Part shown: piece by piece, positions 7,329 through 47,760 of the stretch
Position numbering within the stretch: the first letter of the stretch is position 1
Layout of the letters: every line of letters begins with the position of its first letter
Source of the DNA: Chlorobaculum limnaeum
GTDB taxonomy: Bacteria > Bacteroidota > Chlorobiia > Chlorobiales > Chlorobiaceae
Reading direction: 5' to 3'
DNA: 64,000 bases
NCBI RefSeq assembly: GCF_001747405.1
Contig: NZ_CP017305.1
Coordinates: forward strand, 576,001-640,000
Made by a program: the position numbers and the translations under genes
The notes under the pieces: generated by a model
The model's database searches: none
The model's input: only the letters and a program-made list of their open reading frames with translations
What the model was told of the DNA's origin: nothing

Positions 7329-8657
7329 ATGGCCGATCTGAAATCGATTTACAAAAAACTCTCTCCAAAGCCGCTCGATGGTACGGAATTAGAGCGATGG
7401 TACGTCGATGCCGTTGCCGGACGGGGCGATGATCCGGTCTGGAAGCTCACGCGGCGTTTGCAGGATGAGCCAGGCGGACATCTCCAGATTCTCTTTTCGG
7501 GGTATCGTGGTTGTGGCAAGAGCACCGAGCTGAACAAGATGACACGAGAAATCGAAGGCGACATGCTGGTGCTGAACTACTCCGTGCTCAAGGAACTCGA
7601 TCCGGTGACGCTGAATTACGTCGAGCTTTTCGTGATTACGATGGAGAAGCTTTTCGAGCTTTCCGGGAAGCATCATCTTGCCATCAGTCCCGATCTTCTT
7701 CGTAGCGTCCATGAGTGGATTCAGAGTGTGGAAATCGAGAGAACTCGTGAAATGGGCGCTGATGTTGGCGTCGAAACGGGCGTAGAAGCTGAAGTCAGCG
7801 TTCCCTTCCTGAGCAGGATTTTCGGGAAAATGAGAGCTTCCGCCAATGCGAGTTACAGAAACAAGAAAACCATTGTCGAAACGATCGAACCACGGCTTTC
7901 CGATCTGATCGTCTATTGTAACCTTCTCATTCGCGAGGTCAAATTGCGACTGCCGGGTATCGGTAAAAACGGGCTGCTTGTAATCATAGAAGATCTCGAC
8001 AAGCTCAGTGTCGAAAAAGCAGAGGAGCTTTTTTTCAAAAACAGTTTCATTCTGACCCGCCTTCAGGCACATGTGATTTTCACGTTTCCCATATCGCTTC
8101 GTCATCATCGAAATGCCAAACTGATTCGGGCTAATTTCGATGAGGATTTCGAATTGCCGATGGTCAAGGTGCATGAAAAAGACGGGATGCCGTTTGAGGC
8201 GGGCATCAATAAATTGCGGGAAATTGTAGAACGCCGCATTGACAAAGAGTGCTTTGAAACTCCGCAATTGCTTGAACGGATTGTCAAAGACAGTGGTGGT
8301 TGCTTGTGGGATTTGTTCAAGATGATTCGCGATGCGTCAGATAATGCCTTGCTTCGGAAAGGCGATTCGATCAATGAGGATGATTATCTGAGAAGTTTCC
8401 GGATGCTTCGGCGGGATTACGAAAATTCTATTGCTGAAAAAAGAGTCGATCATCAGGTGGTGATTTCCGTGGATGACTACTATCGTGTGCTCGAAGAGCT
8501 TGCAAAGAGCAAGACAAAGAGAATCGACAATAACGATGCGGCGCTCGATCTGCGGCAAAGTCTTTGCATTCTTGGCTATAACGGTGATTGGTGGTGCGAT
8601 GTTCACCCCATTGTGCGCACCATTCTCGATGAGCGAAAACAAGAACTGACGAAATGA
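7329..8657 (+). CDS. P-loop AAA/KAP-like ATPase, partner of the TPR protein
   Basis: This 442-aa protein has a Walker A motif, GYRGCGKST, at residues 58-66 and a Walker B strand, LLVIIEDLDKL, near 215-222. An FILTRLQAHVIFTFP strand resembling sensor 1 follows. The C-terminal third looks like a winged-helix region (ALDLRQSLCILGYNGDWWCDVHP). This layout is typical of stand-alone STAND/KAP-type ATPases that work with repeat proteins. Its stop overlaps the start of the next gene (ATGA), which implies translational coupling. It has no signal peptide or clear membrane segment, so it is probably cytoplasmic. Function unknown; a role in defence is inferred from context only. Confidence 0.75.
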   Translation: MADLKSIYKKLSPKPLDGTELERWYVDAVAGRGDDPVWKLTRRLQDEPGGHLQILFSGYRGCGKSTELNKMTREIEGDMLVLNYSVLKELDPVTLNYVELFVITMEKLFELSGKHHLAISPDLLRSVHEWIQSVEIERTREMGADVGVETGVEAEVSVPFLSRIFGKMRASANASYRNKKTIVETIEPRLSDLIVYCNLLIREVKLRLPGIGKNGLLVIIEDLDKLSVEKAEELFFKNSFILTRLQAHVIFTFPISLRHHRNAKLIRANFDEDFELPMVKVHEKDGMPFEAGINKLREIVERRIDKECFETPQLLERIVKDSGGCLWDLFKMIRDASDNALLRKGDSINEDDYLRSFRMLRRDYENSIAEKRVDHQVVISVDDYYRVLEELAKSKTKRIDNNDAALDLRQSLCILGYNGDWWCDVHPIVRTILDERKQELTK

Positions 8658-10336
8658 CGCAGTCACAGAATTCTGATCGCACCTGGGCGGAGAGTCTCGA
8701 AAGCGCGGCGCGCTATTTTACGCATACGGTGGGCGGCGCGTTCCGGTTTGCGGTGACCAGTGACGAGTTGGTGCAGCGGCGGTTCAATGCGGAGCTTCAG
8801 CAGGTTTTGCGTGGCAAGGAGACGCCGGTGCAGATTCACGACTGGTCGAAGGCCTCACCACCCGATATGTATCCTGCCGAGCAGCTCCGGCGCTTGAAGG
8901 CGGCCCGTCCCGATACGAAGGGGATTATTTGCATCGGCCTCGAACGCGCCATGCGCGAGAGTCCGGAGATGCTGACGTTGCTTAACTTTGCGCGGGAGGC
9001 GCTGTCCGATGTTGGTGTGCCGATTCTCTTCTGGATTTCATTCCGCACCCTGCCGCTCATGAGCCGCTTCGCCATCGACCTCTACAACCAGCGGATCGGC
9101 GCGAATCTCTACTTCGAGCACGACGCCGAAAGCGCCGACGCCGACGGCTCCGCCATGCGCTTCATCGCCCACGAAACCGTTGCTGCAAACCAGGACCTTC
9201 GCCCGCTCGAAGCCCGCCTGAAACTGCTGGAAAAGCAGTTCGACGAGCTGAAGAAGATTCAATCGCCCGAAAAAATGGCCAACGATATTGTGCTTGAGCT
9301 GTTGAAGGTGTATGTGCAGATTCCGGGGATGAGCAGGATGGTTCAATCGCTGATGGATGAGTATGGAATGTTGATTGATCTTGAGAAGCCTGGCCGATGC
9401 TTTGATATGGCTACGATTTACGAATATCTCGGTGATGTTCAAAAAGCTGAACAGCACTATCATCAGGCATTGAAACAGTATCGTATTCTTGTCGAGCAGA
9501 ATCCGCAGGCTTGGTTGCGGGATTTGGCACTGACACTAAACAATTTGGCAAATCTGCAATGGAATCAAAACGACTATGATTCAGCGGAAAAGGGGTACCG
9601 AGAAGCGCTTGATATCAGGCGAGATTTGGCCGCAAGCAATTCGCAGAAGTGCCTGCCAGATGTGGCTGCGACGCTGAACAATCTTGCGAAATTGCAATGG
9701 AGTCGAAACGATTATGATTCAGCAGAAAAGGGGTACCGGGAAGCCCTGGATATCAGGCAAAAACTAGCTGCAAGCAATCCGCAGAAGTACCTGCCAGATG
9801 TGGCTACGACGCTGAACAATCTTGCTGTGCTGCAATGGAGCCAAAACAACTATGACTTAGCGGAAAATGGGTACTTAGAAGCGTTAGGAGTTTATAAGGC
9901 ACTGGCTGCAAGTAATCCGCAGATTTACCTGCCGGAGGTTGCCATGACGCTGAATAATCTTGCTGCGTTACAACAGACACGAAAGGGCTACGATTTGGCA
10001 GAAAAAGGATACAATGAAGCGTTGTGTCTCTATAGGGAACTTGCTGAAAGTAATTCGCAGACCTATCTACCGGATGTAGCTTTGACGCTCAGCAACATGG
10101 GATTGTTGTATCAAACCGGGTTGCCCGACAGGGAGAAGTCATTAGCCTGTGCTCAGGAGGCGTTGTCTATTCTTTTGCCTTTGAAAGAGCGTCTTCCGAA
10201 AACTCGAGAGTCTTTTGAACGGGCAAAGCAAGTCGTCGAAAACTGGGGTCTTGATCCCGATGAATTCATTGCCAACCTGAACATTTCCCAGCCAGAAACT
10301 CCTGCCAACGGTACCTCTTCTGCTGAACACGAATAA
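8654..10336 (+). CDS. TPR-repeat protein with N-terminal alpha/beta domain
   Basis: This 560-aa protein starts inside the stop of the ATPase gene (4-bp overlap). The first 170 residues form a predicted alpha/beta domain with hydrophobic strands GIICIGL and VPILFWISF and no P-loop. A linker to about 240 is followed by at least five kinesin-light-chain-type TPRs between about 249 and 490. Each repeats near 48 residues with the pattern LTLNNLA.LQ....YD.AEKGY.EAL. Two repeats are close to identical at DNA level (from about 9577 and 9721), which suggests recent expansion. The TPR array probably binds a partner or a trigger protein. Confidence 0.8.
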   Translation: MTQSQNSDRTWAESLESAARYFTHTVGGAFRFAVTSDELVQRRFNAELQQVLRGKETPVQIHDWSKASPPDMYPAEQLRRLKAARPDTKGIICIGLERAMRESPEMLTLLNFAREALSDVGVPILFWISFRTLPLMSRFAIDLYNQRIGANLYFEHDAESADADGSAMRFIAHETVAANQDLRPLEARLKLLEKQFDELKKIQSPEKMANDIVLELLKVYVQIPGMSRMVQSLMDEYGMLIDLEKPGRCFDMATIYEYLGDVQKAEQHYHQALKQYRILVEQNPQAWLRDLALTLNNLANLQWNQNDYDSAEKGYREALDIRRDLAASNSQKCLPDVAATLNNLAKLQWSRNDYDSAEKGYREALDIRQKLAASNPQKYLPDVATTLNNLAVLQWSQNNYDLAENGYLEALGVYKALAASNPQIYLPEVAMTLNNLAALQQTRKGYDLAEKGYNEALCLYRELAESNSQTYLPDVALTLSNMGLLYQTGLPDREKSLACAQEALSILLPLKERLPKTRESFERAKQVVENWGLDPDEFIANLNISQPETPANGTSSAEHE

Positions 10337-10357
10337 ATTCCATCTTCGCCTGGGGAC

Positions 10358-10475
10358 GCCAAGCTCCAGCTTGGCATCTTTCTGCTGTTTCCATGGCATA
10401 TTTTCATCACTATGACGTTGTTTTGCGAGTCGGAAAATGTTTCGATACTTGCATTGTGTGGAGCCTTCGGCTCCA
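10358..10475. repeat. Intergenic hairpins (GCCAAGCT...AGCTTGGC type)
   Basis: Two short perfect hairpins occur here: GCCAAGCT/AGCTTGGC at 10358-10375 and TGGAGCC/GGCTCCA at 10459-10475. Related words recur near 10478 and 12490 (ATGGCGCTCCCAGGTTGCTT). They look like dispersed intergenic repeats. The first could act as a weak terminator for the TPR gene but has no T-run. Confidence 0.5.
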
Positions 10476-10489
10476 TTGCCAAGCTGGAG

Positions 10490-10573
10490 CATGGCGCTCC
10501 CAGGTTGCTTCAGGGTTGCTCCCAGGTTTCACGCCGACCGGCCTGCTTCGATCAGCTCTTCGGCAAACTGGAG
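10490..10573 (-). pseudogene. Duplicated 3' end of recN (remnant)
   Basis: On the minus strand this reads LQFAEELIEAGRSA then stop, which aligns with the true RecN tail LQLATELIEAGKTA. The homology continues past the stop into the shared downstream words AAGCAACCTGGGAGCGCCAT. It matches 12493-12560 with several substitutions, so it is either an old copy or one acquired from a relative. Only the last 14 codons remain. The two copies bracket the nucleotidyltransferase remnant and the TIR gene. Confidence 0.7.
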
Positions 10574-10783
10574 TGGCATCACAAAACGATCAAGGCCGAA
10601 TCACCGCTCGACTGGAAACTGCTCGCCGAAATCAAGGAAACATTTCAGGAATCCGAATTGCGGTTCAGAGTGGATGTTCTGGATTGGAATGATATAACAG
10701 AATGATTTCGCAAGGCGATAGAAATATCCGGTTTTAAGATATTGTCGAGAATATTGATAGCTTGTTTCGGTCCCTATATCTAA
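10574..10783 (+). pseudogene. Broken MNT-type nucleotidyltransferase, C-terminal fragment
   Basis: The plus strand reads SPLDWKLLAEIKETFQ, then LRFRVDVLDWNDITE, an in-frame TGA at 10703-10705, then FRKAIEISGFKIL. This matches the usual end of small MNT-domain nucleotidyltransferases (minimal NTase of HEPN-MNT toxin-antitoxin pairs), where DWKLLAEIKE..., PFRVDVVDW and SF...IE occur in that order. The catalytic N-terminal half is missing and its place is taken by the recN remnant. The internal stop confirms decay. The assignment is by motif recall only. Confidence 0.6.
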
Positions 10784-10907
10784 CGGTGTGCGTTACCTGC
10801 GCTGGGGCGGGGACGGTGAAGCCGTCTAACCAGAAAAATGCCGAGGCGTAGAAAAATGCTTGAAAACGGCGCAGAATCCCTAGCGTCAGGTGCACGCTTT
10901 GTTAGCC
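10778..10907 (-). other. Candidate attC (integron cassette recombination site), 130 bp
   Basis: The outer plus-strand ends are ATCTAAC (10778-10784, perfect RYYYAAC) and GTTAGCC (10901-10907, close to GTTRRRY). The inner arms GTGCGTTACCTGCGC (from 10788) and GCGTCAGGTGCACGC (to 10897) pair with bulged bases, including one extra A, as in folded attC sites. The size is like long VCR-type sites. The site lies directly 3' of the TIR gene, as a cassette requires. The cassette start at 12078-12084 (minus strand GTTAGCC) pairs exactly with GGCTAAC of this site, as expected for an integrated cassette. Confidence 0.65.
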
Positions 10908-10925
10908 AGTTTCTTTTTAACCAGA

Positions 10926-12029
10926 CTATATCGCTTTCATAGAGGGTTGTAACCTTTGTTTTGACTCTGCCCGAATACATAGAGAACGCATAAGACGCTC
11001 AAAACCATTTTGCTGAGATAGATTAACCCAATGCCATCTACTTAGTGCTTCCGGAACATCACATTCTTCAAGCCGAATTGGAATTATGTAAATTTCATCT
11101 TCAGGCTGTTCGGATGCAACATCCAACGCATATTTTATTTCCTTCTGTATATATCCTGCCTTGTTGGTTGATTTGTTACTCAAACAGACTAACACAACAT
11201 CTGATGATTTAACGGCTTTGGGTATTTCAAGCCGCCAGTCTTGACCAGGTAATAAATCTTCTTCGTCAAGCCAGGGGTCTATGCCATATTCTGTTAACTG
11301 ATTATATAAGTCACGCACAGCGGGTTTGTCTCCAGAAGCATGACACAAGAAGGCTTTCAATTTCGTCTTATTTGTCGGAGTTCGTTTTGATGTTTTCTCA
11401 AAAAATATTTTTTCTGATACATCTTTTGTTTCGGCAAACTCATTTAAGAACGCTTCAATTGCGATAATAATTTGTGGCTCTATATTTGCTTCAAGTAATT
11501 TTGATTTGCACTCTGAATCAAGTTGAGGCTTTTTTATCTTGAATACCTTGTCTGGCTTGTATGCTGTAAGGTCAAAAATACAACCTTTAGTTTCAAGGTG
11601 AAAAAGGTCAAGATAATCGGTTGTGTGCTTATGTGATTTATATATTGTCCAAAGTATATGGGGAAGCAAGGAGATAACAATATATTCTTCAACTGTCCTA
11701 TTTGCTAACGTGTAAATCTCCTTTGTCTGGAACAAAGTCAAGGCAATACAGTTTGAGCCAACCGAGCGCACAAAGAAATTATCTTCAAGTGGTGCTTGAG
11801 TAATACCAACTCGAATCACTGTTTTAAAAATATCTATTGGTTGAGTAGAAAGAATGCCATGAACGTATGAATCGCTAAAATACTTCGATGTAGAGTAATC
11901 TATAATCAAAGACTTATCGTGCGAAACGGCATTCAAAACGCTGTTGTCAATACTGTTGATTAGTGAAGTTATCTTTTGAAAATTGACAAAATCTAAATCG
12001 CCAAGTTTGAAGAAGTGGATTTCCAGCAT
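10926..12029 (-). CDS. TIR-domain protein, probable integron cassette gene
   Basis: The protein has 367 residues. The last 135 form a TIR domain: KAFLCHASGDK (box 1), GIDPWLDEEDLLPGQDW (BB loop), SSDVVLVCLS, then GYIQKEIKYAL with the likely catalytic glutamate, and YIIPIRLE. TIR domains of this kind hydrolyse NAD or act as signalling scaffolds in bacterial immunity. The first 230 residues form an unrecognised domain with LETKGCIFDL followed by a lysine-rich segment and another cysteine. The gene is markedly AT-rich compared with its neighbours. It starts about 50 bp inside a cassette boundary and ends 18 bp before the attC-like site, so lateral acquisition is likely. Confidence 0.8.
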   Translation of the reverse strand: MLEIHFFKLGDLDFVNFQKITSLINSIDNSVLNAVSHDKSLIIDYSTSKYFSDSYVHGILSTQPIDIFKTVIRVGITQAPLEDNFFVRSVGSNCIALTLFQTKEIYTLANRTVEEYIVISLLPHILWTIYKSHKHTTDYLDLFHLETKGCIFDLTAYKPDKVFKIKKPQLDSECKSKLLEANIEPQIIIAIEAFLNEFAETKDVSEKIFFEKTSKRTPTNKTKLKAFLCHASGDKPAVRDLYNQLTEYGIDPWLDEEDLLPGQDWRLEIPKAVKSSDVVLVCLSNKSTNKAGYIQKEIKYALDVASEQPEDEIYIIPIRLEECDVPEALSRWHWVNLSQQNGFERLMRSLCIRAESKQRLQPSMKAI

Positions 12030-12517
12030 TGCTACTTTCTTTGTTTTGATATGTGCGTAAATGTGTTTACAAACTGGCTAACAATGTTTAGACTGATCTG
12101 CCTAATCCAGAAAAGGCAGAAAGCTTTTTTCTGTATAAGACAACCCCATAACCATACTCACAGACCAGCCAATTGATTATTTTTTATACGGTTTAACCAC
12201 ATTAACAATTATTGAATCTTGCCGGTTTATACAGATCAGTCTAACCCGGCAAAGTTCAGGTCTCACTCAAAGAACGCTTCACGCAAATTCAGCAGTAACC
12301 GCAGAATCAAAGCACCTGCCAGCATTTCCGTCGCTCGTGTAACATCAGATCAGTTTTTCTCATTCGGAAAGCCGTCTCGTGAGGGGTACTGCATAAACCC
12401 GACGGCGAGGCTTACGGCTTATATTTACGAAGATTACGAGATTATCACAAGCATAAACTGAATGAAAGAGCCGATCCCGAAAGCTTTCGGGATGGCGCTC
12501 CCAGGTTGCTTCCAGGC
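12030..12517. repeat. Non-coding stretch with 13-bp inverted repeat
   Basis: This gap between recN and the TIR gene holds no convincing gene. TTAGACTGATCTG (12088-12100) is exactly inverted as CAGATCAGTCTAA (12232-12244). The cassette boundary GGCTAAC lies at 12078-12084. AAACTGGCTAACAA (12071-12084) is also found inverted at 10900-10913, so this 14-bp pair brackets the TIR gene. The 80-codon ORF at 12219-12461 has no recognisable features. Confidence 0.6.
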
Positions 12518-14224
12518 TTACGCCGTCTTCCCCGCTTCGATCAGCTCCGTGGCGAGCTGGAGGGAGGCGGCGGTGATGTCAGCTCCGCTGAAGAGGCGGG
12601 CGACCTCTTCGATGCGCCGGGTTTCGTCGAGCGGGGCGACGCCGGTGAGGGTGCGGTCGGCTTCGATGCGTTTCTTGACGGCGAGGTGCAGGTCACCCAT
12701 CGCGGCGATTTGCGGGAGGTGGGTGATGGCCATGATCTGGTGCATCCGCGAGAGGCGCTTGAGGCTGAAGCCGACCGACTGGGCCACCTTGCCGCTGATG
12801 CCGGTGTCGATTTCGTCGAACACGAGAATCGGCAGCTCTGCCGAACGGGCGAGCGCGCTCTTCATGGCGAGCATGACGCGCGAGATTTCGCCGCCGGAGG
12901 CGACCTTTGCCAGCGGCTTTGGTGACTCGCCGAGGTTGGTCGAAATCATGAACTCGACGCGGTCGCAGCCGTTGTCGAACGCCTTGTAGCGCGTGCCGTC
13001 GATCTCGATATCGCCGTCCGGCGAGGCTTCGCGGGTGAAGCGCACCTCGAAGGCGCTGTGCGGGATGCCGAGCGTCGAGAGGCCTGCCATGATCTCCCGC
13101 TCCAGCCGCCCGGCGGCTTCGCGCCGATGCTCCGACAGGCTGTTCGCCGAGGCCGAGAGCGCCGTGCGGGCGTTGCGGATGTCGGCCTCGATGGCCGCAA
13201 GTTCGCCCGCCACATTCTCTTCGAGTGACAGCTCTTCGGCAAGACGGTCGCGCAGGGCAATCAGTTCGTCGATGCTTTTTCCGTGTTTTTTGGCGAGCCT
13301 TTGCAGCAGCAACTGTCGCTCGCGCAGCTCTTCGAGTCGGTCGCGGTTGAACTCGATGCTGCCGGTGTAGCGCCCCACGTGGCGGTTCAGCTCCTCCACC
13401 GTGGCGGTCGCGCCGCGCAGCTCTTCGAGGTACGGTTCGAAGCGCTGGTCGATCGAGGTGAGCTTTTCGAGTAAATGTACTGCCGACGAGAGCGCCGTGT
13501 AGGCCGAACTTTCCGATTCGTAAAGGTTTTCGCCCAGCTCCGTACCGAGGCTGAAGAGCGTCTCGGCGTTTTCGAGCAGGTTGATCTCCTCGTCAATCGA
13601 GCGCTCCTCGCCTTCGACGAGCGCCGCCGCTTCAAGCTCCCTGTACTGATAATCGATGAAATCGCGCTTCTCGCGGAGCGCGTCGGCGCGTTCGGTGAGG
13701 CATTGCAGCTCGCGGCGGAGCTTGCGGTACTCTTCGAGCGTGTTGCGGTACTGCGCGGTTTCGGCGTGCAGGAGGCCGAATCCGTCAAGCATTCCGGCGT
13801 GCGTTTCGGCGTGCAAGAGAAGCTGGTGGTCGTGCTGGCCGTGCAGATCGACGAGCTGCTGTCCCACTCGCTTGAGCAGCGAGACCGTGCAGGGGGTGTC
13901 ATTGATGAAGCAGCGCGACTGGCCCGTCGCCGAAATGTCGCGCCGCAGAATCAGTTCCGGCGTACGCTCGATCTGTTCTTCGTCGAGCATTTCGCCGATG
14001 CTTTCGTAGTGTTCGCCGCCGAAGACCGCCTCGATCACCGCCTTGGACGCGCCTCCGCGAACCATCTCGGCGCTTGCCCGCTCGCCGAGCACCATGTTGA
14101 GCGCCCCCATCAGGATCGACTTGCCCGCGCCGGTCTCGCCGGTGATGATGGTCAGTCCGGGTGCGAAGCTGACCGAAAGTTCGTCGATGAGCGCGAAATC
14201 CCTGACATAAAGGCTTTTGAGCAT
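12518..14224 (-). CDS. recN: DNA repair protein RecN
   Basis: This 568-aa protein is a full-length SMC-like ATPase used in recombinational repair of double-strand breaks. It shows LKSLYVRDFALIDEL at the N-terminus, Walker A GETGAGKS near residue 30, and QHDHQLLL. A central coiled coil (about 150-370) is followed by the signature ASGGEISRVMLAMK and Walker B PILVFDEIDTGISG. It acts in the cytoplasm on chromosomal DNA. The 3' end is duplicated as a remnant at 10490-10573, so this gene end marks the border of the accessory region. Confidence 0.95.
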   Translation of the reverse strand: MLKSLYVRDFALIDELSVSFAPGLTIITGETGAGKSILMGALNMVLGERASAEMVRGGASKAVIEAVFGGEHYESIGEMLDEEQIERTPELILRRDISATGQSRCFINDTPCTVSLLKRVGQQLVDLHGQHDHQLLLHAETHAGMLDGFGLLHAETAQYRNTLEEYRKLRRELQCLTERADALREKRDFIDYQYRELEAAALVEGEERSIDEEINLLENAETLFSLGTELGENLYESESSAYTALSSAVHLLEKLTSIDQRFEPYLEELRGATATVEELNRHVGRYTGSIEFNRDRLEELRERQLLLQRLAKKHGKSIDELIALRDRLAEELSLEENVAGELAAIEADIRNARTALSASANSLSEHRREAAGRLEREIMAGLSTLGIPHSAFEVRFTREASPDGDIEIDGTRYKAFDNGCDRVEFMISTNLGESPKPLAKVASGGEISRVMLAMKSALARSAELPILVFDEIDTGISGKVAQSVGFSLKRLSRMHQIMAITHLPQIAAMGDLHLAVKKRIEADRTLTGVAPLDETRRIEEVARLFSGADITAASLQLATELIEAGKTA

Positions 14225-36900: not shown

Positions 36901-38181
36901 ATGAGCGACAAACAGTTTGACTCCATAGCATCGGCTCTCGAAGACATCCGGAACGGCAAGATGATCATCGTCGTCGATGACGAAGATCGCGAGGACGAAG
37001 GCGATCTGATCGCCGCCGCCGAATACGCCACGCCCGAGATGGTGAACTTCATCACCAAAGAGGCGCGAGGTCTGCTTTGCGTGGCCATTCCCATGCAGCG
37101 CGCCCGCGAGTTGCAGCTCGAACCGATGGTGCAGCGCAACACCTCGCAGCACGAAACCAATTTCACGGTCTCCATCGATGCTATCGCCGAAGGAGTCACC
37201 ACGGGCATTTCGGCCTACGATCGCTCCATGACCCTCAAGATGATCGCCGATTCCTCGTGCACGGCGGACGACTTTTCGCGCCCCGGCCACATCTTCCCGC
37301 TTCGCGCGATGGATGGCGGAGTGCTGCGCAGAGTCGGCCACACCGAGGCCGCCGTCGATCTCTGCCGCCTGGCCGGTTGCCAGCCCGCCGGTCTGCTCTG
37401 CGAAATCCTGCACGATGACGGCAGCATGGCTCGCCTTCCCGAGCTCTTGAAGCTCAAGGAGAAGCTCGGCATGAAGCTCATCACCATCAAGGACCTCGTG
37501 GCCTACCGGATGCAGCAGAGCAAGCTCGTGCAGCGCGCCGTGGAGTCGAAGCTTCCGACCGCGCACGGCGAGTTCAAGCTCATCGCTTACGAAACCATCG
37601 TTGATCAGCAGAACCACATGGCTTTCGTCAAGGGCGACGTCGCCGACGGAGAGCCGGTGCTGGTTCGGGTGCACTCGCAGTGCGCCACGGGCGACACCTT
37701 CGGCTCGCTTCGCTGCGACTGCGGCCACCAGCTCGAAACCGCCCTGCGCATGATCGAAAAGGAGGGGCGCGGCGTGCTGATCTATCTCATGCAGGAGGGG
37801 CGCGGCATCGGTCTCATCAACAAGCTCAAGGCGTACAATTTGCAGGACGAGGGTTTCGACACGGTCGAGGCCAACGAGAAGCTCGGCTTCAAGGCCGACC
37901 TGCGCGACTACGGCATCGGCGCGCAGATTCTGCAGGACCTTGGCGTCCGCAAGATGCGCCTGCTCACCAATAATCCGAAAAAGATCGTGGGCCTCGAAGG
38001 CTACGGCCTCGAAATCGTCGAGCGCCTGCCGCTGGAGATCGAGCCGAACGATGTGAACCGCTACTATCTCGAAACCAAGCGCGACAAACTTGGCCATATG
38101 ATCGAAATGGCATCCGGCAACGAACGCATTCTCTTCGAGCGTCTTGCCGACGAGCAGTTGAAACAGCACAAGAAACCATAA
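36901..38181 (+). CDS. ribBA: Bifunctional DHBP synthase / GTP cyclohydrolase II
   Basis: This 426-aa protein joins the two entry reactions of riboflavin synthesis. The N-terminal DHBP synthase shows [36 protein letters not shown] and [15 protein letters not shown]. The C-terminal GTP cyclohydrolase II has the zinc site [18 protein letters not shown] and the loop [19 protein letters not shown] chose the ATG at 36901 over a GTG one codon upstream. It lies 24 bp before glyA and may be co-transcribed with it. Confidence 0.95.
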
Positions 38182-46798: not shown

Positions 46799-47760
46799 TT
46801 ATTCTTTGATATACTTTATAAGGCTCATGTATTCCTCTTTATTTGAATAATCGGCTCTCTTTTTATCATATAGCAAGTAAGGTATATCTTCATCTGGGCA
46901 GTTATCCAATTTTAAAGGAATTACCTTTTTATCGTTATTACCGCCATATTCTTTATTCAATATAGGGCCATATTCAGCTCTACACCAATTAGACTTTCCT
47001 AAATTTTTACTTAATGTTACGATGATAAATTTTGAGTTTTTAAGCCCGTATTCTATTTTATTTGTAATGTTGTCTCCGAAATTAATTTGTTCGTGGTCAA
47101 CCCATACTTTAATTCCTTCTTTTTTAAAATCAGAAACAATCTTTTCTATTGCAGACTTATCTGCACTAGAATGACTTAAAAAGACATCAAACTCTCTTAA
47201 ATTCATGGTGTTTTTTGATTTATTCTTCCAATTATAAACTTCAATATTTATATCTCTAACTGTTAATTTTGCTCTAAAAAATCGAACAATTCCTACATGT
47301 CCTTTGAAGGGGATGTTTGGTATGCAATGTTTTATAGTAAAACTATTATTTGAGTTTGAAACTGTGCCTTCAATCTCGCCTGAAAAAAATTTAATTTAAA
47401 TATATTATATCCAGAATCAAGCTGTATTTCTTTTTTAATGAAACTAAAGGATGAAAAAGGTATTCATTAACAAAACTTAATCTTAAAATGGTTTTGTCTT
47501 TTGATGTTTCTGATGGTGAAGTATGAAAGCAGATAAACGTGCCGTATTCATTTGCTCTACAAATTAAACCTGCACCAACATTTGACCAATCGCAAATTTT
47601 TCATTTTTGCGGAGATGGAACCGTTAAGAAATTGTCCCTGTGACTTGTTTATAGCATATGATATTAAATATTTCCCCGTTCCACTACCAGTGCCTGTTAT
47701 GAATTTGTCAGACAAAAACCAATGACCTCCCTGAGCTTTATTAGCATCCCAGTCTTTCAT
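46799..47760 (-). pseudogene. Lectin-like beta-sandwich plus TIR protein, with three frameshifts
   Basis: The intact end (46799-47206, 135 aa) is a TIR domain: REFDVFLSHSSADK, KEGIKVWVDHEQINFGD, SKFIIVTLSKNLGKSNWCRAEYGP (likely catalytic Glu) and KVIPLKLD. The same frame runs upstream through GHVGIVRFFRAKLTVRDI and SGEIEGTVSN to a T7 run. Other frames continue it: GYNIFKLNFF, CDWSNVGAGLICRANEYG and, from ATG 47760, MKDWDANKAQGGHWFLSDKF. Joined, they give about 320 aa with a concanavalin/LamG-like N-terminal domain. The shifts lie at A5 (47597-47601), T6 (47431-47436) and A7 (47383-47389). If real, the gene is dead or yields only a short TIR protein from 47206. Confidence 0.65.

Follow-up and report, generated by a model that had tools for sequence, protein, structure and literature searches.

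A TIR gene cassette docked at an attI site without an adjoining integrase gene in Chlorobaculum limnaeum, and dispersed copies of that site

The locus and its features

The analysed window comprises 64 kb (positions 576001-640000) of the closed 2.80-Mb genome of Chlorobaculum limnaeum. This genome encodes an FMO antenna protein (PF02327), the mark of a green sulfur bacterium (Chlorobiaceae). Downstream of the host gene recN lie a leader, an attI site, a single gene cassette with a TIR gene, the attC that closes the cassette, and a right flank (Table 1). An attI copy with no adjoining integrase gene (intI) is called solo here.

Table 1. Features of the recN locus and other elements of the window (window coordinates)
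Feature	Position	Strand	Length	Description
recN	12518..14224	-		Host gene; in several species of the genus the solo-integron locus comes after its 3' end
Leader	12253..12465	-	213 bp	Upstream of many attI copies without intI; from alignment
Solo attI, type 1	12078..12252	-	about 175 bp	Core TCTAAACATTGTTAG runs up to the G^TT crossover (12082/12081)
Inverted repeat around attI	12088..12113 / 12219..12244			TTAGACTGATCTG...CAGATCAGTCTAA, imperfect
Integron gene cassette	10784..12081	-	1298 bp	Between two G^TT crossover points; borders match those of relatives at the same locus
TIR gene	10926..12029	-	367 aa	N-terminal region 1-226; C-terminal TIR_2 227-346 (Pfam TIR_2 4.4e-28; PADLOC TIR models)
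attC	10778..10907	-	130 bp	R'' GGCTAAC 10907-10901, R' GTTAGAT 10784-10778; covariance model and arm pairing
Right flank	10589..10785	-	197 bp	Begins 1 bp ahead of the crossover G; also present at other solo attI loci
Partial second recN 3' end and downstream sequence	10340..10573			Beyond the right flank
TPR gene	8654..10336
tRNA-Ala call	37642..37734			Anticodon cgc; ARAGORN
Second TIR protein	46799..47206	-	135 aa

The TIR gene cassette and its attC site

The sequence downstream of the TIR gene had been put forward as a 130-bp attC-like element with ATCTAAC at 10778-10784 and GTTAGCC at 10901-10907, and both boxes lie exactly there. A covariance model trained on nine attCs from Chlorobiaceae relatives and other loci, with the window's own site left out, returned precisely this stretch on the minus strand as a real attC (26.5 bits; E 1.6e-4, a rough value owing to short calibration). 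It is the single convincing match in the 64 kb, the next best scoring 11.5 bits. With the filters off the search missed the site, a 130-nt match probably exceeding the model's length band. The R''/R' and L''/L' arms fold on the bottom strand. The arm-arm duplex has an energy of -17.7 kcal/mol, where shuffles average -7.1 (s.d. 2.1) and none of 2000 reached the observed value, and the bottom strand of the cassette folds into a more stable structure than the top (-24.4 against -19.2), which agrees with expectation for attC. An Rfam scan of the window gave no matches. Relatives of the site, sought in integron arrays, are a 130-bp attC at 75% identity that closes a different gene (L018, in G015) and one at 83% inside an array that carries intI (L053, in G093).

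The original prediction also held that the R'' box pairs with the cassette start, GTTAGCC, which it placed at 12084-12078. The motif lies 2 bp away, at 12082-12076, and all seven of its bases are complementary to R'', within a 14-nt perfect inverted match. Both borders fall at G^TT, homology to relatives stopping at the attI core and resuming at CGTTAGATATAG. The TIR gene is AT-rich, as had been noted, at 36.7% GC compared with 56.2% for the window and 63.8% for recN. No integron integrase was found within the window, again as predicted, and a TIGR02249 search of the rest of the genome returned XerC-like recombinases below the cut-off and one IntI C-terminal remnant, nothing intact; this remnant precedes the attI at 1722 kb (L090). 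An IntI-like match at 2.30 Mb (L001) is interrupted by a TAA, shows about 30% identity to Chlorobiaceae IntI, scores below the TIGR02249 cut-off and, by our reading, has no IntI-specific insert; it was taken as XerC-like and not as IntI. The covariance model, the integrase search, the related attCs and the comparison of flanks described below thus support the placement of the TIR gene in a genuine integron cassette with no integrase nearby.

A TIR domain, as in anti-phage TIR systems, is present in the cassette protein (Pfam TIR_2). No full-length match to a named defence system was obtained, PADLOC matches covering essentially the C-terminal TIR region only, and no full-length relatives were found, matches in related genomes and in one Methanoperedens MAG likewise covering essentially the TIR domain only. 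For the N-terminal region no known relative was found, a sequence search recovered no relative in the PDB, and the single-sequence AlphaFold model (mean pLDDT 38.5) was too poor to use. The motif GYIQKEIKYAL holds a glutamate that is presumably catalytic, as in TIR NADases. Most likely the protein would act as a single-gene anti-phage effector, its TIR enzymology degrading NAD+ once the N-terminal region senses infection. No promoter or terminator stood out upstream of the cassette, and in the first-cassette position the cargo would be expected to be expressed, from attI. Elsewhere in the window, the second TIR protein has no attI core found nearby and, judged by sequence, does not belong to the same system, and the tRNA-Ala call, inside long ORFs, is probably false.

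The attI site and its counterparts beside integrase genes

The attI segment is homologous to the stretch between the intI stop codon and the cassette junction in G006, G013 and G089, the comparison with G013 being partial because the contig ends there. The attI of a complete integron is therefore present at the locus and an adjoining intI is not, the only integrase remnant of the genome lying beside another attI copy. In these relatives intI lies upstream of attI, co-oriented and read toward it, and in Treponema integrons intI is likewise transcribed toward attI (PMC3607928). A second attI type adjoins intI in eight relatives (G026, G032, G035, G075, G078, G090, G093 and G096). The intI-bearing genome G006 carries further solo attI copies too. 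The imperfect inverted repeat that brackets attI is kept in most type-1 copies, those linked to intI included. In one intI-bearing array (L054, G090:C11) attI-like sequences follow one another at three positions (4893, 2622 and 421), which suggests attI copies within an array.

An attI-like match of either type (at least one) occurs in 62 of 73 family genomes and intI above the TIGR02249 cut-off in 13, both counts being drawn from the same 121 genomes. Numbers of attI copies are minima, since scoring covered the six or seven best candidates of each genome. Standard searches keyed to intI would consequently miss most of the system. Most genomes of the genus with a solo attI have no intI above the cut-off at present. 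The leader is genus-specific: 13 of the 21 genomes of the genus carry it, and it occurs in no other genus. None of the intI loci inspected within the genus has it alongside, so it does not merely represent the sequence 5' of intI.

Dispersed attI copies and their cargo

The genome holds at least nine scattered attI copies whose core can be recognised, at 360.7, 588.1 (the window), 706.6, 1103.6, 1722.6, 1944.5, 1960.4, 2144.8 and 2172.7 kb, the last with a variant core. The leader occurs without an intact attI at two further places (814.4 and 1954.5 kb). At seven of the nine copies the covariance model places an attC behind the cargo (the window, 1103, 1722, 1944, 1960, 2144 and 2172 kb), the score at 1722 kb being so by construction since that attC is one of the nine training sequences; none was detected in 84 kb of other control loci from the same genome. 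A weaker attC was seen by hand only at 706 kb, and at 360 kb none was found. The start heptamer is fully complementary to the cassette's own R'' box in 7 of 10 solo cassettes inspected (binomial p 4e-7).

The cargo differs from copy to copy. Besides the TIR gene of the window, the site at 1.10 Mb (1103 kb; L091:5724-7871) carries a TIR gene with a viperin-like radical SAM gene between attI and attC, and that at 2.14 Mb (2144 kb; L093:1980-5733) a complete Gabija pair, GajA and GajB, between the attI core and a covariance-model attC, in an unusually long cassette of about 3.7 kb. The remaining cargo comprises an HNH protein resembling CBASS effectors (1944 kb), a DUF1643 protein (1960 kb), a GNAT protein (360 kb), a zinc-finger-like protein interrupted by a transposase (706 kb) and, at the other two copies, proteins without an assigned identity. 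Solo attI sites of relatives hold a CD-NTase with a second gene and attC, and also TIR (both G009), REase-ARP (G015), a type III methyltransferase-like protein (G003), PDC-M36A (G007) and an OLD-like protein (G012). Defence genes seem frequent among this cargo; as a control, ten ordinary ORFs of the window were run under an equally lenient threshold and yielded two PADLOC matches.

The recN locus across the genus

All 21 genomes of the genus have recN. Downstream of it lie the leader and a type-1 attI in G000 (which carries the TIR gene described here), G009, G011, G015 and G016, and G013 has the same arrangement as far as its contig end. A divergent type-1 attI stands at this place in G001, and a type-2 attI on the same leader in G010 and G012; these different attI sites at one position point to homologous exchange between loci. 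In G002, G003 and G017 the backbone follows recN directly, with no solo-integron locus.

As the comparison of flanks brought out, the loci of relatives hold other cargo between the shared attI and the shared right flank, with exact crossover borders. This cargo comprises 368-aa and 217-aa proteins (G009), an FkbM methyltransferase (G010), a radical SAM protein with another gene (G011), a class-D beta-lactamase-like protein with a transpeptidase domain (G012, L150:10308-11096), a 156-aa protein with a GNAT protein (G015), three ORFs (G016) and a 379-aa protein (G001). Six recN orthologues share 94-99% identity over the final 90 bp of attI, compared with 86-92% for recN coding DNA and 81-91% for the leader, a degree of core conservation that hints at use or at gene conversion. 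Pairs that include G001 drop to 72-75% in attI, so attI itself was exchanged at least once. No intI remnant was found at the recN loci of any species, nor an empty attI fused to the right flank.

The right flank is 86-94% identical over all 197 bp in G009, G010, G011, G015, G016 and G001, and truncated in G012. Where the border is intact it opens with (C)GTTAGATATAG (GTTAGAAATAG in G016, GTCAAATATAG in G001), that is, at the crossover, and the bases that precede it differ among species. Several other solo attI sites have a similar sequence 1-4 kb downstream. We read the flank as holding the 3' end of an MNT-type nucleotidyltransferase-like gene on the plus strand, convergent with the cassettes; it may mark the edge of a larger mobile unit or be a resident gene that the loci share. 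The partial second recN end beyond it (43 nt at 77% and 21 nt at 100%) resembles the recN tails of G013 and G016, and this resemblance suggests that a further recombination event may have brought in the block together with the TPR gene.

Origin and use of the solo attI sites

The reading that we favour, with a probability of roughly 0.7, is that the solo attI sites are platforms filled and emptied by an integrase acting in trans. Scattered through the genome and kept across species, they would receive circular cassettes by attI x attC recombination, and lose them, at the standard G^TT crossover, the activity being supplied by an IntI from another locus, from a relative's integron, or from a past intI now lost. 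Such a distributed integron would have many docking sites, mostly with one or two cassettes each, and one shared, transient enzyme. The exact borders show that the junctions were made by IntI-type recombination. Given that most genus genomes with a solo attI now have no intI above the cut-off, this activity may be past, and whether it would continue today is part of the same conjecture. Later exchange of cargo by homologous recombination through shared flanks would be possible under this scheme.

Homologous recombination might instead account for the pattern by itself, the locus being a hotspot where the shared leader/attI and right flank let scattered elements or strains swap cargo, with no integrase. 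We regard this as rather unlikely. The left and right sequences are common to many loci, different attI alleles occupy the same recN position and a second recN-tail copy lies in the window, all of which would fit; yet such swapping does not explain why the cargo ends in an attC whose R'' matches the cassette start, and the cassettes must have been built by IntI at some stage.

A second possibility is that the sites are dead relics, several complete intI-attI integrons having lost intI, with the last cassette kept by inertia and the differences between species produced by differential loss from older arrays. The eroded IntI C-terminus just upstream of the solo attI at L090 in this genome, like remnants at L017, L069, L073, L084, L085, L109, L176, L178 and L179, and the absence of an intact intI from the genome all speak for decay of this kind, but as a full account it is unlikely. 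The recN loci carry no intI remnant in any species and still differ in cargo with exact crossover borders, so that precise events took place at a locus that lacked its own intI; IntI would be needed even for differential loss that leaves exact borders, and the conservation of the attI core argues against pure decay.

Lone attC cassettes are usually explained by insertion at a genomic site other than attI (attG); here this is highly improbable. Lone cassettes without intI are known, and attG and CALINs are discussed in PMC12444791, but the receiving site shares homology over about 175 bp with the attI beside intI in relatives, and the genome has nine copies of it. That the 130-bp segment is an unrelated repeat or terminator was considered and rejected as having next to no likelihood, since only the whole-site MFE, marginally below that of shuffles (p 0.04), hints at it, against the covariance model, the arm pairing, the R'' match, the homologous attC in an intI-bearing array and the exact shared border.

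Relation to known integrons

Solo attI platforms follow the same attI, attC and cassette logic as the sedentary chromosomal integrons of the Chlorobi and Treponema type, in which intI lies upstream and co-oriented (PMC3607928). Complete integrons are known in Chlorobi (PMC9024848), and in Treponema each integron has only one attI (PMC3607928); here attI occurs without intI, in many dispersed copies, mostly with one or two cassettes each. CALIN and single-attC loci likewise comprise cassettes with attC and no integrase nearby (PMC9024848). The original prediction labelled the TIR locus as lone or CALIN-type, which is right in that no integrase is near; the cassette, however, does not sit at a random secondary position but is docked at a full attI homologue. 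The definition of a CALIN rests on attC alone, whereas the loci here retain a conserved attI homologue. With one attC and no integrase, the window locus would not be reported by IntegronFinder 2.0 at its default of at least two attC sites, and the standard tool detects attI only for class 1 (PMC9024848).

Xanthomonas CALINs at conserved loci are also integrase-less cassettes at chromosomal positions that recur across species; the accessible part of that report describes no attI at those sites (PMC12444791), whereas the docking site here is identified and shared. Delta-attI-type cassettes of mobile class 1 and 2 integrons (PMC12901181) provide an extra, out-of-place attI that IntI1 can recombine, but there attI forms part of the cassette, while here whole chromosomal attI regions act as receivers. 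Insertions at attG similarly leave a cassette in the chromosome away from intI, although attG is neither attI nor attC and the receiving site here is an attI. Cassettes, attC, attI and CALINs are thus known already. No account of dispersed intI-less attI sites with cassette turnover was found in the literature searched, outside which most subscription journals lie, and as weak evidence of novelty this leaves such docking sites as seemingly new.

Significance

CALINs are common and their receiving sites seldom known, whereas here the receiving site is identified and its orthologue traceable across species. Differing cargo at a fixed attI position makes integrase action in trans directly testable. 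Multi-gene defence systems (Gabija, the TIR-viperin pair and the CD-NTase pair) are tied to integron cassettes outside Vibrio and Xanthomonas. A wider proposal, offered tentatively and at somewhat less than even odds, is that in green sulfur bacteria the intI-less attI sites would be maintained as dispersed docking sites, through which anti-phage systems (TIR, TIR-viperin, Gabija and CBASS-type) rotate across the genome, served in trans by an integrase that is gained and lost by horizontal transfer. In these bacteria, cassette docking sites appear to outlive, and to spread beyond, the enzyme that fills them.
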